IMG/VR virus record: IMGVR_UViG_3300050821_019450
Span: 1-40,263 of that record
Length of the DNA: 40,263 bases
Direction: 5' to 3' (one strand)
DNA from: a virus
The notes below the pieces were generated by a model that worked only from the letters and a program-made list of their open reading frames with translations, made no database searches and was not told the origin of the DNA. This document shows, piece after piece, positions 1,520 to 26,420 of the stretch (its first letter is position 1; each line of letters begins with the position of its first letter). The translations under genes were made by a program, and so were the position numbers.

Positions 1520-1981
1520 CTACTTTTTGGGTTCTGGCGTTGGCGGCAGAGTGTGATCCGGGGCCGGCGGCAGAGTGTGATCGGGTGCCGGCGGGGTTTC
1601 ACTCGATGGTGGCAACCCTTGATCCGGCGCTGGCGGGGTTCCGCCAGGGGCAATCGGGTTAGTCGGAAATCCTGGCCCCTGGCTCGGGTAAGGAGGCCGT
1701 GGCAATCCCTGGTCAGGATGGGGCGGGACTAAAATCGGCGGCCAGATTTCCGGCGGCAACTGGATCGGAGGGGCAATCGCCCCGGGAGGTTTCGGCAAAC
1801 CCTGATCGGGCGAGCCTGGAGGCTTCGGAAGTCCCTGGTCAGGAGTGCCGGGGGGTTTAGGTAAACCCTGGTCAGGAGTGCCAGGAGGTTTAGGCAGACC
1901 CTGATCAGGAGTGCCGGGAGGTTTGCCCGGCTGAGCGGGGGGTGCGCTATAATACCAAATCGAGATGTGAACGAGTGCCAT
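1520..1981 (-). CDS. Proline-rich PDQGLP-repeat protein
   Basis: 153 residues. It opens with a short hydrophobic/aromatic start (MALVHISIWYYSAPPAQ). The rest is almost entirely Pro/Gly/Asp/Gln repeat: four tandem 11-residue units of the type PPGTPDQGLPK, two diverged PDQGLP copies, and two PDHTLPP copies near the end. The start is the ATG at 1981, just past the capsid stop; the frame opens further upstream only within the capsid gene. PDQGLP-type repeats are known to me from hypothetical proteins next to podovirus capsid genes. An extended, unstructured virion accessory is a reasonable guess. Confidence 0.7.
   Translation of the reverse strand: MALVHISIWYYSAPPAQPGKPPGTPDQGLPKPPGTPDQGLPKPPGTPDQGLPKPPGSPDQGLPKPPGAIAPPIQLPPEIWPPILVPPHPDQGLPRPPYPSQGPGFPTNPIAPGGTPPAPDQGLPPSSETPPAPDHTLPPAPDHTLPPTPEPKK
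1801..1932 (-). repeat. Four tandem 33-bp coding repeats
   Basis: Units at 1801-1833, 1834-1866, 1867-1899 and 1900-1932 each encode one PPG(T/S)PDQGLPK-type block. They differ at scattered third positions and at a few first positions, so the duplication is not brand new. The number of units could vary by slippage or recombination. Confidence 0.85.
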
Positions 1982-1985
1982 AATT

Positions 1986-3014
1986 TTAAGTTCCGGTGTA
2001 AGCAGTTTTGGTCTGAAGAACAATCCCGTTCCAGGTGCTAAGGCACACGGCATTGTAGAAAGTCTTCCAAACGTAAGTGATAAACTGGCCAAAAGGATTG
2101 GCGCTATCGGGTTGGGTGATGGTGTAGACCTTCGGTTTCGGAGGATTCTCACCAGAGAGTTTAGGAGCCGCGAAAGCATCTTTGCCGAAGACCAGAGCCG
2201 CGATGATCGCTCCACCCGGAACCGGAGTTCCTTCGGTGCCGCCGCTGGTCTGATAGCAGGGATTAGTGGCCCGCATCACCTTGATCCCGGAAAGGGTCCC
2301 GATCTCGCCTTTCCAGATCTGGTCAGGCTTATTGAACGCGGACGCATAAACCCAGGCGCTCCCTTGTTCCTCAATCAGGTCGCGTTCCTGTTCCGGCGAA
2401 ACCACCGCCACGAAGGTGCCGTCATCGAATTCCTTGGCTTTCTGGACCCGCAGCTTAGTCACCGCATCGATCAGATCATCACCGGAAAACCGTCCGGTGG
2501 CTCCCGTAAGCGCCGATAATGAGGTGAAATCCGTTGCAGTGCCGGCGTACATCCGGCCAAATTTTGTCGGCTCTTCCGTGGTCCCCATAATGCAGGAGTC
2601 ACGAATGAGGGTGTCGCACCACAACGCGGCTTCCTCGCCAAATTTGGTCATCAAGGCATCACCGGTGTTCAAAAATTCCGTCTCATCGACGATATCGCTG
2701 ACCTGTGCATACCCGCCATACTGCTGAAGGCTCCGAGTGATAAACTCGAAGATCAGCTTGTAAGGCGCATTGGTCGGCGGAGTGCCTTCTGTCAGGGTGA
2801 TGACGTTGGCCAGAGACGCTGGGGGCGCCCGGAACATCCTCATTGTCTTACTGCCCTGCCCAGTCGGAATTTCTGCCGGATAGCAGAATTGATAGAGCTG
2901 GAGCTTATCCACCTGGTGCTCCAGCAGTTTTTTCGCAAAATAAATCCTATATTCTGAGGCTTTATCGGTACTGGTGACCGCCCCATAGATAGGTTGATTA
3001 ACCGTAGTTGCCAT
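1986..3014 (-). CDS. Major capsid protein, N4-gp56-like
   Basis: 342 residues, a normal length for HK97-fold capsid subunits. The N-terminal half has the N4-gp56 pattern: FAKKLLEHQVDKLQLYQFCY, then IPTGQGSKTMRMFR, then LTEGTPPTNAPYKLIFEFITRS, then QQYGGYAQVSDIVDETEF. Further on are the spine-like VTKLRVQKAKEFDDGTFVAVVSP region and an EIGTLSGIKVMRATN segment. The gene follows a scaffold-like gene and sits downstream of the portal, the standard head-module order. The product would assemble the icosahedral shell. The family call is by pattern recognition. Confidence 0.88.
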   Translation of the reverse strand: MATTVNQPIYGAVTSTDKASEYRIYFAKKLLEHQVDKLQLYQFCYPAEIPTGQGSKTMRMFRAPPASLANVITLTEGTPPTNAPYKLIFEFITRSLQQYGGYAQVSDIVDETEFLNTGDALMTKFGEEAALWCDTLIRDSCIMGTTEEPTKFGRMYAGTATDFTSLSALTGATGRFSGDDLIDAVTKLRVQKAKEFDDGTFVAVVSPEQERDLIEEQGSAWVYASAFNKPDQIWKGEIGTLSGIKVMRATNPCYQTSGGTEGTPVPGGAIIAALVFGKDAFAAPKLSGENPPKPKVYTITQPDSANPFGQFITYVWKTFYNAVCLSTWNGIVLQTKTAYTGT

Positions 3015-12339: not shown

Positions 12340-13062
12340 ATGCAATCATTACTCAAATTCGGCCGCGCGAACGACAAGCTTAAAAAGCTTGAAGCACGGC
12401 TCGGAAAGAGACTCTACACCATATCGCTTAAAGCGGGCTATTCCTGCCCTGGAGCAAATTTGTGCTTCGCCAAATATGATGCCAAGGCAAATACTGTAAT
12501 CGATGGCGAGCGCGCGGAATTCCGCTGTTTTGCTGCCAGTCTTGAAGCTGTCTTCAAAGGTTTCGAAGCCAATAATCAGCACAATTTCGATTTGCTCAAA
12601 GGGGCGAAGACAGAACAAGCAATGTTTGAATTGATCGTCGAGTCAATTCGTACGCTGAAATCCCCTGGCATCATTCGCGTGCATGTCAGTGGGGACTATT
12701 TCAACAAGACGTATTTTTACGCTTGGATGCGAGCAGCTGCGGTGTTTCCTGAAATCAACTTCTACAGCTACACCAAAAGCATTCACATTTTAAATGAGTG
12801 CGTTGAGTCAATTCCTTCGAATTTCTCGATCACCTGCAGTGAAGGGGGAAAATTCGATCACTTAATCTCTGATCGGTTCAAGACGGCCAAAGTCGTTTTC
12901 TCAGTTGAGGCCGCTGCGGTGCTTGGAATGGAAATCGACCACGATGACTACCACGCTGCAGTCGGGAAAGAATCGTTCGCCCTTTTGCTTCACGGCTCCC
13001 AGAAAGGCGGGACCGAAGCTTCACGGGCTTGGCAGATCAACAAACAACTCAAATTCGCCTAA
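12340..13062 (+). CDS. GP88-family phage protein
   Basis: 240 residues. It has the hallmarks of the phage GP88 family named after mycobacteriophage gene 88: an early GYSCPGANLCFAK cysteine motif, then IIRVHVSGDYFNKTYFYAWM, then INFYSYTKSIHILNE, then an SITCSEGG segment, and a C-terminal SFALLLHGSQKGGTEASRAW. The family's biochemical role is not established to my knowledge. The cysteines suggest metal or cofactor binding (inference). The SD is AAGGAAAAT. Its place in the first early operon suggests a takeover function. Confidence 0.75.
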   Translation: MQSLLKFGRANDKLKKLEARLGKRLYTISLKAGYSCPGANLCFAKYDAKANTVIDGERAEFRCFAASLEAVFKGFEANNQHNFDLLKGAKTEQAMFELIVESIRTLKSPGIIRVHVSGDYFNKTYFYAWMRAAAVFPEINFYSYTKSIHILNECVESIPSNFSITCSEGGKFDHLISDRFKTAKVVFSVEAAAVLGMEIDHDDYHAAVGKESFALLLHGSQKGGTEASRAWQINKQLKFA

Positions 13063-13236: not shown

Positions 13237-13499
13237 TTCATCACCTTTTCTTTTTCGTGACCACACTAGCCCTGGATCTTGCCCTCTCCTTTGGGCCACT
13301 GGTGCTCGGACTCTACGCTTTCGGAAAACTCAATGAGTGCTTCTGGGAAAATGGCCAGGTCAAATTCAGCCTCAAACCCTTCCTTCTCATGCTCGTCGGC
13401 ATTGCCCTACTAGTGGCCATCTTACCGGAAGCGCGAGGAGAATGGGACCGCATGCACAAACTCGAGGCCGAAAATCCCGATCCAGGGGACAGATTCTAA
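13233..13499 (+). CDS. Two-span membrane protein
   Basis: 88 residues with membrane segments at about 4-30 (LFFFVTTLALDLALSFGPLV) and 48-66 (FLLMLVGIALLVAILPE). A charged loop lies between them and an acidic soluble tail follows. It is translationally coupled on both sides by ATGA and TAATG overlaps. It may act at the inner membrane, for example in superinfection exclusion, but nothing identifies the function. Confidence 0.65.
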   Translation: MIHHLFFFVTTLALDLALSFGPLVLGLYAFGKLNECFWENGQVKFSLKPFLLMLVGIALLVAILPEARGEWDRMHKLEAENPDPGDRF

Positions 13500-13948
13500 T
13501 GGCCCACAGACGCACAGGGCGCCCCGTAGGGCGTCCTTCCAACCAGGAGAAGGCAGAAAGGGCTGCTCTGGCCAAAGAGAAGGCCAGAGAGGCTAATCCG
13601 CTCTCCCGCTTGCCCAAATACGGGCCCCCAGTCCCCAAAGGGCTGGGCTGGGGAGGACGGCGGGCTGGAGCGGGGAGAAAAAGAAAAGAAGGGAGAAAAA
13701 TGGCCATGGTTCTTTTAAACCGTGACTTGGAATCCAAACTGTCGGCCCTGCCAGCAAACACTCGCTCCGAATATTTACGCCAAGCTATCGACCTGATGGT
13801 GACGATTTCCCCTCCTGAGAAATTTGTCCTGAAAAACGAACCAATGGCTGAAGGGGAAAATGAGGCTCCGGAAAAATCCAAGATAATTCAAGTTTCCCTC
13901 GAAGAAAGGCCCCCGCCAGGGGAATTAAATGCCATCGGGTCGCCGTAA
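13499..13948 (+). CDS. Basic ribbon-helix-helix-like DNA-binding protein
   Basis: 149 residues. The N-terminus is very basic with AT-hook-like repeats (GRPVGRPS, then GGRRAGAGRKRK). About 68-100 reads MAMVLLNRDLESKLSALPAN then TRSEYLRQAIDLMV, which matches the strand-helix-helix of Arc/CopG-type repressors. The C-terminal 45 residues look flexible. It starts at the TAATG overlap at 13499; upstream codons in this frame overlap the membrane protein. It is probably an early regulator or nucleoid-type binder. Confidence 0.6.
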   Translation: MAHRRTGRPVGRPSNQEKAERAALAKEKAREANPLSRLPKYGPPVPKGLGWGGRRAGAGRKRKEGRKMAMVLLNRDLESKLSALPANTRSEYLRQAIDLMVTISPPEKFVLKNEPMAEGENEAPEKSKIIQVSLEERPPPGELNAIGSP

Positions 13949-13962
13949 TCGGGCGCCATCGG

Positions 13963-13983
13963 GCACCGTCATCATGACGGTGC
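13963..13983 (+). terminator. Palindrome with terminator features
   Basis: GCACCGTCAT and ATGACGGTGC flank a central C, and the hairpin is followed by TTTT on the plus strand. It lies 15 bp after the ribbon-helix-helix gene. It can fold as a terminator for the first early operon, and is also one of the outer elements of the symmetric repeat region that follows. Confidence 0.5.
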
Positions 13984-14122
13984 TTTTCCCTCGTATGACG
14001 GTAAAACCTGCCTTTTTCAACCTTCTCTATACTTCCCCCTTCACCTGCAAAGAGAAAAAAAGGCAGTTTTACCGTCATCCATAGGAGAAAGTACCGTCAT
14101 GGGCACCGTCATGATGACGGTG
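13963..14122. repeat. Symmetric array of ACCGTCAT boxes between convergent genes
   Basis: Seven copies of ACCGTCAT/ATGACGGT lie in 160 bp. Two 19-21 bp palindromes form the outside (13963-13983 and 14104-14122). Inside, 22-23 bp inverted arms (13995-14017 and 14057-14078) pair with only one unpaired base. A single extra box sits at 14093-14100. The whole block is non-coding, between the end of the plus-strand gene at 13948 and the end of the minus-strand helicase. It may be a replication origin, a regulator binding array or a two-way terminator. Confidence 0.8.
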
Positions 14123-14130
14123 TGGCAGCG

Positions 14131-15549
14131 TCATTGCTGGCGCAAGCGTTCGCTCAAGGAGCGGGAACGGATGGTATAATTTTTGGCATCCATGGTCCGT
14201 CGAAACGACACTCTATCGGGGCGTTTCTCGACCAATTTTTGCAGGTATCTTCCGGTAAAGGACTGACCGCGCAAAAGGTCGTCGGCTTGTGCCTTGACGC
14301 AACTTTTCGGATGTCTCAAGTCGGCTTCGATTTGGGCGGCGCTGCCTTCCATCAAGTCGCCTGAGTCCATTACGAGAGTTTCGAATTCGTGTTTTTCGCT
14401 GCCGAAATAGAAAATATCGATCAACTCCAGCAGCTTCACGTAGGGTTCATGCTCATCCATCAGTTCAAGAACCCGTGGCGCGCGATAGACCTTCACGCCG
14501 AAACGATTGTCTCTCCACTCCTCGGGAATTTTGATCTGATGGAGCAAGTCCCAGATAAACGCCGGCAGTTCGCTAACCAGGGTAGCCCGGAAAATCGCCT
14601 GTTCCTCACTGGTCCCGGTCGGCATCGGCATGGGCACGCACGCCACGTCATAAAGGCTGATCTTGTGATCGAGCGACACATCGCTTGGCGGCAAAAGAGC
14701 TACGTTTGCGCTAGTGTCGTTGAGGCTGATGGTCAATCGTTGGAAGAGCGGCGGGACCATGAAAGGCATCTGATACTTGGCATGAGACTGCTTATCCTGA
14801 TTGGCGATGATTGCCTTGATCGCGGCACCTAGCGTCATCCGCGACTTCAAATCGCTGGCCGAGTGCTCGTCTTCGATCATCAAATGCTCTGCCGCAAAAG
14901 TATGGGCGTTAAAGGAAGTCTTGCCGGTCATGGACTCATAAGGCCGAGACATTCGCCCGCCCAGGATCAGCGTCAGAAGATCCTGCCAGCGACTTTTGCC
15001 GGCCGAATGAGGCCCGCACCACACTGGGGCAGTGCCAAGAGTGCAGCGTCGGTTGTAGAGATCGTCAACCGCCTGGTGAGTCCACCACAAGTTATGGTCG
15101 TACTGCTTGGAGTCCAGCATACCGGAAAGCAGTAAAGCGAGCGTTGGCCAATCTCCCTCCTTTGGCGTGATCAGGTTTGGCGCGTCTTTGACCAAAAGTG
15201 TTTGGCCTCCATGGTGAATGATCTTTGGGCCGAAGTGCCCTGCCAGGGAGGTCACGGCATTGATCACGTTGTGGTCCTGAATCGACGTAATGATCTTCTC
15301 AGCGTTCGACGGTTTGCCATCGTGGCGCGAGATATCGACACCGAAATTAACGCCGACATACCTGCCAAATTCCTTCGGGCTCAATTCGAGCAATTGCTTA
15401 TTTCGGTTAAAGAATACGATCCGCCCGCGATTGGTTTCATAGTAAAACGGCCGGGTATCAAATATCCGACTCTGGCCCGCCGGCTTCTTCACTTTTTTTG
15501 GTTCAGGATCAGGTTGATTCATGCTTTCAAACGAGTCTTTTTTGGTCAT
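14131..15549 (-). CDS. Superfamily 3 (D5/VirE-like) replicative helicase
   Basis: 472 residues. The ATPase core has Walker A GPHSAGKS at 179-186, Walker B HLMIEDE with Asp227, and a sensor-1 strand RLTISLND ending near Asn277, all in the spacing of SF3/DUF5906-type helicases. The N-terminal 170 residues would be a primase-linking or DNA-binding part; the C-terminal 150 residues are probably a winged-helix region. It should unwind DNA for replication. Its start overlaps the primase gene by 23 bases, so the two are co-translated. It runs against the surrounding early genes. Confidence 0.78.
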   Translation of the reverse strand: MTKKDSFESMNQPDPEPKKVKKPAGQSRIFDTRPFYYETNRGRIVFFNRNKQLLELSPKEFGRYVGVNFGVDISRHDGKPSNAEKIITSIQDHNVINAVTSLAGHFGPKIIHHGGQTLLVKDAPNLITPKEGDWPTLALLLSGMLDSKQYDHNLWWTHQAVDDLYNRRCTLGTAPVWCGPHSAGKSRWQDLLTLILGGRMSRPYESMTGKTSFNAHTFAAEHLMIEDEHSASDLKSRMTLGAAIKAIIANQDKQSHAKYQMPFMVPPLFQRLTISLNDTSANVALLPPSDVSLDHKISLYDVACVPMPMPTGTSEEQAIFRATLVSELPAFIWDLLHQIKIPEEWRDNRFGVKVYRAPRVLELMDEHEPYVKLLELIDIFYFGSEKHEFETLVMDSGDLMEGSAAQIEADLRHPKSCVKAQADDLLRGQSFTGRYLQKLVEKRPDRVSFRRTMDAKNYTIRSRSLSERLRQQ

Positions 15550-16543
15550 AGAACAGGACGGGTTGAGGTTGATTATTTTCCGACTTGCGAGTGCCGCCGG
15601 GGAAACGGAAAAAACGTTCGGGTTCGTCCCCGCCTTTATCAGCGCCCAATGGTATCGCCCGGGCCAGCAGATCCAAGGCGTTTTGCTCTGAGAACTTCTT
15701 CGAGATCTGGAACCACGAATGAAGCGACTTGCCTCCAGAGTCGACGATCATGAAGGGCCAGCGCCGTGGCTCGCCGGTAGTCGCCAGGTGATGGATCAAA
15801 TAGGCTTGCACGTCGCGTGAGGAGATCCCCTTTGCTGCCCAGGCTTCGAGGTGCTTGGCAAAGGTTTTCCCGAAGTCGAACTCGATTACGAGATAAACGC
15901 GCGGTCCCGCGTTTTCCTTGCATCGAGGAGAGTCCGATTTGCCCGTGGAATAGGCGAATCCTGTCATCTTCGACATTGGCGAAGGCACGATCCACTCCAT
16001 CTCCTTCTCAACGCCGCGAAAAGATTCCCGGGTATCGGTGCGGGCCCACCGTTGACTGCCGGCCGCGCGACAAATCCAGGGGTTGCCTGGATAAAGCCGG
16101 TCAATAATCGCTTCCGAGCTCGGAATAGCTTTTCGTTTAGGGCGAAGGAACGCCAGGAGTCGCGCGTACATCCCTAACGCATTCCCGGCTAGCTCGTCCA
16201 AACGCTTGAAGGAAACCTTCGAGCCTTTGACGTGCGGCCGGTTATCAACCGGGGGAAGATAAACTTCGCCTAGTTCGTCGCCATGCGCCAGGCGCCACTC
16301 TTTGTGAATGTAATAGGCTACTCGGCGCTCAGACCACGGTGGTTTACACCTTGTCCGGTTATACTCGAGCATCCATTGGCGGTACAATTCAAAGTCGGCG
16401 GTACAACATGCCAGTTGCCTTGCCGTGGCCCAAAGCTGATTGTCGCCATTGCTGCCGGATATCGAGCAGTCAATGTCACAAATACGAGGGAGATCGATAT
16501 TTACTTGACCCCCTCCATTGGGGACAATATTCTGGTCCTGCAT
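15527..16543 (-). CDS. Archaeo-eukaryotic-type primase (PrimPol-like)
   Basis: 338 residues. The catalytic landmarks are near the C-terminal half: VYLVIEFDFGK (Glu221/Asp223), MIVDSGGKSLHSWFQ (His275) and FFRFPGGTRK (315-320) followed by QPQPVLFYD. This matches the acidic, S-x-K-S-x-H and R-x-PG-x-R pattern of AEP primases in phages and plasmids. About 40-90 is a cysteine-containing N-terminal helical part. The gene starts with AGAAGGAAG upstream. It should make primers for the polymerase, in partnership with the downstream helicase. Confidence 0.75.
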   Translation of the reverse strand: MQDQNIVPNGGGQVNIDLPRICDIDCSISGSNGDNQLWATARQLACCTADFELYRQWMLEYNRTRCKPPWSERRVAYYIHKEWRLAHGDELGEVYLPPVDNRPHVKGSKVSFKRLDELAGNALGMYARLLAFLRPKRKAIPSSEAIIDRLYPGNPWICRAAGSQRWARTDTRESFRGVEKEMEWIVPSPMSKMTGFAYSTGKSDSPRCKENAGPRVYLVIEFDFGKTFAKHLEAWAAKGISSRDVQAYLIHHLATTGEPRRWPFMIVDSGGKSLHSWFQISKKFSEQNALDLLARAIPLGADKGGDEPERFFRFPGGTRKSENNQPQPVLFYDQKRLV

Positions 16544-24097: not shown

Positions 24098-24400
24098 ATG
24101 GACGCGGAATCACAATTGCTGGCTGAGAAAGACGCCGAGATCCATCAATTGGAACGCGATCTGGCGGATGCTGTACAGAACATTCAGGCGCACTCGATGA
24201 TCGTCGATGCGAACGAGAAAGACGCCGAGATCGAGCGGTGGAAAGAAACCGCATTGGCATGGCGAGAGCAAACAGAGAAACGAGACAAGCTTATCACCGA
24301 ACTTGCGGATTGGGTCAGGGATCATAGCTACGAAGGATACTCGCTACCTAATATCCAGCTTAGAGAGTTACTTCAACGCGCACGGGAGGCCACACGATGA
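24098..24400 (+). CDS. Coiled-coil protein, RAREATR-ending family member 1
   Basis: 100 residues, almost all coiled coil, with an internal repeat: EKDAEIHQLERDL and EKDAEIERWKET are encoded by identical 16-base segments (24127-24142 and 24217-24232). The second half has KLITELADWVRDH and ends LLQRAREATR. It starts only about 10 bases after a terminator stem and has no SD. It is a paralogue of the 86-residue gene two places downstream. Confidence 0.6.
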   Translation: MDAESQLLAEKDAEIHQLERDLADAVQNIQAHSMIVDANEKDAEIERWKETALAWREQTEKRDKLITELADWVRDHSYEGYSLPNIQLRELLQRAREATR

Positions 24401-24401: not shown

Positions 24402-24513
24402 CGAGAAAGCAGTCGAGAATGCGTTTCGTGAAGGATTTAGGGCTGCGGTTGAAGGAGTCCTAACCGAAGACGAAGCGTGGCAAGAGTTCGTCGATTCCTG
24501 TTCTGACCTATGA
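24397..24513 (+). CDS. 38-residue acidic micro-protein
   Basis: MSEKAVENAFREGFRAAVEG, then a VLTEDEAWQEFVDSCSDL end. It starts in the ATGA of the first junction repeat and stops in the ATGA of the next gene. Predicted to be two short helices. No family is recognised. It lacks the RAREATR ending of its neighbours. Confidence 0.6.
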   Translation: MSEKAVENAFREGFRAAVEGVLTEDEAWQEFVDSCSDL

Positions 24514-24770
24514 GTGAGTATCAGTTCCATCACTTGGGGTGCGGGTGCGGGTGCAATGATTACCTCCGCAACCCGAAAGACGCCGAGATCGGGAGGCTGA
24601 GAAACGAGATCCTTGATCACATCTATCATGAGGCTCGCTTACGCAAGCTGATCACCGAACTCTGCGATGCGCTGAGGGAATCGAGATTAACGCGCACCGG
24701 AGATAAGTGCGTAGAATTTTGGCAAGGCGTCGATGTGCTCCTCCAACGCGCACGGGAGGCGACACGATGA
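24510..24770 (+). CDS. RAREATR-ending family member 2
   Basis: 86 residues. The N-terminus has FHHLGCGCGCND, a cysteine cluster that may bind metal. It is followed by PKDAEIGRLRNEI (encoded by the same 16-base segment as in the 100-residue gene, 24575-24590), KLITELCDALRES, and the LLQRAREATR end. The shared blocks in the same order show a duplication from, or with, the 100-residue coiled-coil gene. Confidence 0.6.
   Translation: MSEYQFHHLGCGCGCNDYLRNPKDAEIGRLRNEILDHIYHEARLRKLITELCDALRESRLTRTGDKCVEFWQGVDVLLQRAREATR
24744..24770 (+). repeat. Junction repeat, copy 2
   Basis: Nearly identical to copy 1 over 27 bases (one mismatch in the ATGA-proximal part), again joining a RAREATR C-terminus, an SD and the next ATGA. 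Confidence 0.85.
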
Positions 24771-24937
24771 ATCGGCGCGAATTTAGTATCCTGATCACCG
24801 AGGGAAAGGACGGTCTATTCCTGGCCTCAGCTATCGGATTTGTCGGCGGTGGCAACACAGTAAAGGAGGCACTGGATGCTTGGGTTGATGCCATTGTTGA
24901 TGACGCGATTGGGCGCGCACGGGAGGCGACACGATGA
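24767..24937 (+). CDS. HicB-like small protein
   Basis: 56 residues. FSILITEGKDGLFLASAIGF, then VGGGNTVKEALDAWVDAIVD, follows the HicB fold: two strands, a glycine-rich turn and an EALDAW helix. No HicA-like toxin (about 60 residues with a GSH-type motif) lies next to it, so it is an orphan. HicB-like domains also serve as stand-alone regulators. The last residues are the shared RAREATR. Confidence 0.6.
   Translation: MNRREFSILITEGKDGLFLASAIGFVGGGNTVKEALDAWVDAIVDDAIGRAREATR
24915..24937 (+). repeat. Junction repeat, copy 3
   Basis: The GCGCACGGGAGGCGACACGA core is identical to copy 2 and ends in the ATGA that starts the next gene. It gives the HicB-like protein its RAREATR ending although that protein is otherwise unrelated to the two coiled-coil paralogues. 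Confidence 0.85.
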
Positions 24938-26374: not shown

Positions 26375-26415
26375 CCTCCCGCCCGGGTGGTCCTCCCTGG
26401 CGGGAGGTTTTTTTT
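26375..26415 (+). terminator. Rho-independent terminator of the early operon
   Basis: Nine-bp arms CCTCCCGCC (26375-26383) and GGCGGGAGG (26399-26407) with a 15-base loop are followed by eight T residues. It marks the end of rightward early transcription, close to the convergent late genes. Confidence 0.88.
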
Positions 26416-26420
26416 CGTCC

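Follow-up and report, generated by a model that had tools for sequence, protein, structure and literature searches.

Genes and repeats at the junction

We analyzed a 40,263-base stretch of phage DNA (the window; IMG/VR record IMGVR_UViG_3300050821_019450), in which an array of short boxes separates 2 convergent genes. The genes converge, as the preliminary description had stated: the stop codons of the + strand ORF, at 13948, and of the - strand SF3 helicase gene, at 14131, face each other across the array, which begins 9 nt beyond the helicase stop and 15 nt from the end of the gene on the other side (Table 1). The latter encodes a protein with a ribbon-helix-helix (RHH)-like C-terminal part. 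The product of the gene upstream of the helicase contains the motif SGGKSLHSWF and is AEP primase-like by eye; the family libraries gave no match to it, and in L049, L044, L050, and L056, relatives of this protein are encoded upstream of the helicase. Among the other genes of the phage is one for a family A DNA polymerase. Searches of annotated phage proteins with the SF3 helicase, and also with the RHH protein, returned zero matches. Elsewhere in the window, the product of 12340–13062 (+), an ORF in the short + strand operon of the RHH gene, has a clear match to Pfam GP88 (PF17338, E 1e-35); 3 small ORFs (24098–24400, 24510–24770, and 24707–24937) share the terminal peptide RAREATR, which suggests a recent tandem duplication; and an ORF with proline-rich tandem repeats (KPPGTPDQGLP) at 1520–2215 (-) overlaps the start of the structural-gene neighborhood.

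Table 1. Genes, boxes, and repeats at and around the array, in window coordinates.
Feature	Position	Strand
Convergent neighbor, RHH-like C-terminal part, unlikely box reader	13337–13948	+
Box array with AT-rich spacer, putative replication origin	13963–14122	none
Left outer palindrome, 10-bp arms around a 1-nt center, GCACCGTCAT-C-ATGACGGTGC, TTTT after	13963–13983	none
Box 1, ACCGTCAT	13965–13972	+
Box 2, ACCGTCAT	13974–13981	-
Box 3, ACCGTCAT	13995–14002	-
Inner inverted repeat core, left arm, with box 3	13995–14017	none
Spacer between opposed boxes 3 and 4, proposed unwinding element	14003–14070	
Inner inverted repeat core, right arm, with box 4	14056–14078	none
Box 4, ACCGTCAT	14071–14078	+
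Box 5, ACCGTCAT	14093–14100	+
Right outer palindrome, 9-bp arms around a 1-nt center, CACCGTCAT-G-ATGACGGTG	14104–14122	none
Box 6, ACCGTCAT	14105–14112	+
Box 7, ACCGTCAT	14114–14121	-
Degenerate half-site CGTCAT (eighth site), overlaps helicase stop codon	14129–14134	+
SF3 helicase (DUF5906-like), predicted C-terminal winged helix (residues ~399–461), proposed box-binding initiator	14131–15549	-
Putative primase gene, directly upstream of helicase	15527–16543	-

The 7 boxes, which lie between 13965 and 14121 in both orientations, are all exact copies of ACCGTCAT. The whole window holds 11 matches to this sequence versus 0.79 expected, a count of at least 11 was reached in 0 of 100 dinucleotide shuffles, and this is the only 8-mer family of the window with a cluster of at least 5 in 200 bp. 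The 2 outer palindromes are perfect and are mutual inverted repeats, without mismatch over 20 nt. They enclose a long inner inverted repeat (13984–14017 and 14056–14089; 34 nt, 74% complementarity), whose core gives an inner stem-loop behind the SF3 gene with 23-nt arms and a 38-nt loop. Boxes, palindromes, and inner repeat were thus as first described, but the exact symmetry that had been claimed for them is only approximate, because the outer repeats are centered at ~14043 and the inner ones at ~14036.5. The 68-nt spacer between the opposed boxes has an A+T content of 60%, compared with 45% in the window, and the array region folds far beyond shuffled sequences, both as single-stranded DNA (z = -12) and as RNA (z = -9.4 and -8.2).

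Convergent flanking genes, strong folding on both strands, and the TTTT after the left palindrome are what a bidirectional terminator between 2 operons would display, the repeats then serving RNA hairpins only. We consider this very unlikely, since a terminator scan found zero sites within the array and a terminator needs neither tandemly spaced copies of one 6-mer in both orientations nor a sequence-specific box common to distant SF3 loci (see below). Within the array, a GC-rich hairpin with a T run behind it, as is usual for intrinsic terminators, is not found, the left hairpin being followed by TTTT only; this palindrome may nonetheless act as a weak + strand terminator in a side role. The other convergent junction of the window carries a strong intrinsic terminator of the standard type (~26376–26418), consisting of a hairpin, CCTCCCGCC...GGCGGGAGG, and then T8, and the elaborate junction at 14 kb therefore stands out. 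The perfect terminal inverted repeats could also delimit a small MITE-like mobile element. This has next to no chance of being correct: target-site duplications are not visible at the array edges, the array is present in a single copy in the window, and the exact palindrome occurs elsewhere in IMG/VR as chance matches in unrelated sequence. That search gave 3 matches, of which those in L002 and L003 lie inside coding sequence reading VTVIMTVM.

The helicase slot in sister phages

A search with the large terminase returned 4 relatives that were 68% to 83% identical; single-sequence queries with the helicase, the terminase, or AAA_25 proteins all yielded few relatives. In the sister phages at 80% to 83% terminase identity to the window, the slot beside the RHH gene (L007, L009/L012, and L010/L011) contains a primase and an AAA_25 helicase, and in the 3 assessable sisters out of 3, a box array and a hairpin immediately follow the stop of the AAA_25 helicase. 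Their boxes are unrelated to those of the window, being ACTAAACG in L011, TGCARTATC in L007, and TGCACC in L012. When the repeat score of the array was compared with those of all other 250-nt segments of the same genome or long fragment, p values of 0.0013 to 0.011 were obtained for each of 4 genomes including the window (combined p = 3e-7). The fourth terminase relative (L008, phage G002) was left out because its sequence stops just before the helicase stop. The occurrence of unrelated helicases, each with its own array, in one slot of sister phages is the less expected part of these results, together with the recurrence of this layout at AAA_25 helicases of other phages (see below). The preliminary description had suggested that the array could mark the border of a mobile replication module, and this reading gains support because the sister slot holds a different helicase together with a different array.

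The terminase relatives showed 3 further features. In the L009 phage, a gene whose product weakly matches the N-terminal domain of ParB (L012, 210–1670, -) starts inside or right after the array, between the helicase and RHH genes. Clusters of the palindrome-like sequence GCTAGCA, absent from the window, lie around the end of the gene preceding the terminase in L010 (8808–9010, 8 copies) and L009 (8669–8851, 6 copies). Finally, the first gene on the contig of the 68% relative is of host type and resembles cytochrome c peroxidase genes (L008, 1315–2532), which hints at an integrated copy.

The RHH-like gene beside the slot is conserved in 4 of 4 terminase relatives and ends close to the array, as would be expected if the boxes formed an operator or partition array for its product. 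However, the boxes do not follow the RHH gene. L009 and L010 encode RHH proteins whose DNA-reading strands are almost the same (KMTMVRMD and KQTMVRMD, respectively), yet the boxes are unrelated, the phage of L009 having TGCACC boxes and lacking ACTAAACG. The RHH protein is therefore an unlikely reader. Moreover, tblastn, which is of modest sensitivity, detected no RHH relative near other SF3 arrays, the array of the window lies downstream of the RHH gene, and a promoter scan of the array was empty. A regulator array for the RHH protein, as proposed earlier, is thus highly improbable.

The box core behind distant SF3 helicases and the helicase fold

The SF3 family was opened only by a two-sequence alignment of the window helicase and its L004 relative, which as a query led to 18 more viral and 20 genomic loci, the genomic ones mostly in Verrucomicrobiota assemblies. 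Directly behind the helicase stop (250 nt), the words repeated most often have the same core as the window box (GGTGTCAC, GCCGTCAC, GCGTCACC, CTGACGCC, and similar words). We enumerated 528 degenerate 6-mers in the 250 nt after the stop of 27 SF3 loci without favoring the window motif, and RTGACR/YGTCAY ranked first, with 96 occurrences versus 13.8 expected (z = 22; runner-up, z = 12). At least 2 copies of YGTCAY were present in 19 of the 27 loci, compared with 8.8% of 2199 other windows. Searching beside other SF3 helicase genes, one of the checks that had been proposed for the array, was the decisive test and revealed YGTCAY arrays downstream of them. Opposed box groups around a spacer of roughly 60 to 110 nt recur in the SF3 loci, the spacers having in most cases an A+T content above that of their own locus, and the first box overlaps the helicase stop in 7 loci (window, L042, L044, L045, L047, L048, and L052). 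The arrangement of box pairs differs, with palindromes in the window and direct repeats, often 8 nt apart, in most relatives. YGTCAY was absent from the downstream 250 nt in 6 SF3 relatives (L004, L023, L053, L054, L056, and L059), and L023 and L054 have GTGGAGGG-type repeats in its place.

An AlphaFold model of the window helicase built from a 29-sequence alignment had a pLDDT of 88.6 and a pTM of 0.82; the model from the two-sequence alignment was unusable (pLDDT 32.7). The C-terminal winged helix is predicted to comprise helices 404–411, 419–425, and 431–442 and strands 447–451 and 456–461. The top fold match was the C-terminal region of NrS-1 polymerase (Z = 20.5), and the SaPI5 primase-helicase (Rep) matched with a Z of 16.6 in an alignment that reaches model residue 457. 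Among 381 alignment columns, residue 456, with which the second wing strand begins, showed the strongest association with box type: it is basic (K/R) in 18 of 19 GTCA-box loci and in 0 of 6 others, with an uncorrected p of 4e-5 that fails strict correction for 381 columns and 7 residue classes. A link between this wing residue and box type, as the sequences suggest, is a lead and not a proof, because the poorly resolved helicase tree gives too few independent pairs (only 1 to 4) for this test.

The array could also be an origin at which some other initiator, of the phage or of the host, recognizes the boxes. RSF1010-type replicons work in this way, with RepC as a separate reader of the iterons for the RepA helicase (PMC4234260). 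We find this unlikely for the window, as the type of box goes with the family of the helicase across elements and switches when the family switches, we saw no further gene that travels with it, and the predicted winged helix is part of the helicase.

A candidate origin and its known counterparts

Among the alternatives raised in the preliminary description, an origin with iteron-like boxes is the best supported, by the motif downstream of SF3 helicases, the sister arrays, and the predicted winged helix. The array is probably a phage replication origin of the primase–initiator helicase–origin type, with boxes read by the SF3 helicase. In this Verrucomicrobia-type phage, DNA copying most likely starts at the array. 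We infer that helicase binding, melting, priming, and the start of replication all take place there. Docking of the SF3 helicase on the ACCGTCAT boxes behind its own gene would be mediated by the C-terminal winged helix, and the opposed box groups flanking the ~70-nt AT-rich spacer would allow the assembly of 2 helicase rings face to face. These rings would then melt the spacer, possibly aided by the inner hairpin, and the adjacent putative primase would start synthesis. GC skew, another check that had been proposed, has no turning point at 14 kb and is uninformative here because gene strands are mixed.

The same helicase-then-array layout is found with the AAA_25 helicases of other phages. 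In 12 annotated AAA_25 phages, the 250 nt after the helicase ranked first within the locus for repeat content in 7 and within the top 6% in 3 more, and a repeat excess behind the helicase was absent in 2 (L069 and L070). Repeated 8-mers were more abundant in 8 gaps behind helicases than in 15 gaps between other genes of these loci (median 0.365 versus 0, p = 0.0002). Because these phages are a small sample, hand-picked for host diversity, the generality of the AAA_25 pattern is suggestive. Dense phage-specific arrays were seen behind the AAA_25 helicase in L060, L061, L063, L065, L066, L067, and L071, mostly Firmicutes phages, with GGACAAAACC in L063 and GAAATGAAA in L066 as examples. We see about even chances for a general rule by which the unrelated SF3 and AAA_25 (RecA-fold) replicative helicases of phages would each have acquired a DNA-reading C-terminal domain, with the cognate origin right behind the stop; helicase and origin would move as one cassette, 4 such pairs sharing a slot in one phage family, and the box would be predictable from the helicase tail. 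A full-text literature search found no paper naming such origins in Verrucomicrobiota-associated phages or elements, for which YGTCAY boxes directly behind an SF3 helicase would provide an origin-finding rule. The AAA_25 layout in Streptococcus, Bacillus, Paenibacillus, Faecalibacterium, and Mycobacterium phages suggests that origins may be locatable from sequence in many uncharacterized phages, and initiator–origin co-evolution can be tested directly through the box–helicase tail pairs.

Initiator-helicase origins are a known kind, to which the window adds a putative member; it matches them in position, repeat anatomy, and protein fold. In SaPI Rep and SCCmec Cch2, the C-terminal domain is reported to read short repeats directly downstream of its own gene (PMC7581432). 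Like SaPI (SaPIbov1 and SaPI5 Rep) and SCCmec Cch2, the window has an SF3/D5-like helicase with a C-terminal DNA-binding domain, the initiator role being proposed and the domain predicted in its case, and short repeats directly behind the helicase gene (PMC7581432); the putative primase gene of the window may correspond to the primase gene near those helicases. The iterons flanking an AT-rich region in SaPI/SCCmec have their counterpart in the seven 8-bp boxes and the 68-nt spacer. However, sequence identity is very low (~8%), the box sequence differs, the boxes are partly palindromic, and the element is a phage with its own family A DNA polymerase and kin to Verrucomicrobiota elements, not Staphylococcus. 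In pRN1, a stem-loop downstream of the SF3-winged-helix gene is required (PMC4234260). Both pRN1 and Bordetella phage BPP-1 (BIP-1) share with the window an SF3 helicase with a C-terminal winged helix and a large downstream stem-loop (PMC4234260), and the stem-loop of ~100 nt behind the SF3 gene that characterizes them is present in the window. pRN1 is described without iterons, whereas the window is dominated by short conserved boxes. According to work cited in PMC4234260, the winged helix of the initiator helicase of satellite phage P4, alpha, binds repeats of the origin, and we propose that the window helicase may do likewise. In P4 alpha, a Toprim-type primase is fused to the helicase, whereas the putative primase and the helicase of the window are separate ORFs, neither of which has a Toprim match. 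Finally, the AAA_25 sister phages resemble the RSF1010 RepA/RepB'/RepC oriV, in which iterons and hairpins lie beside helicase and primase genes, although RSF1010 relies on the separate iteron-binding protein RepC, unlike what we propose for the window, where the helicase itself would read the boxes.
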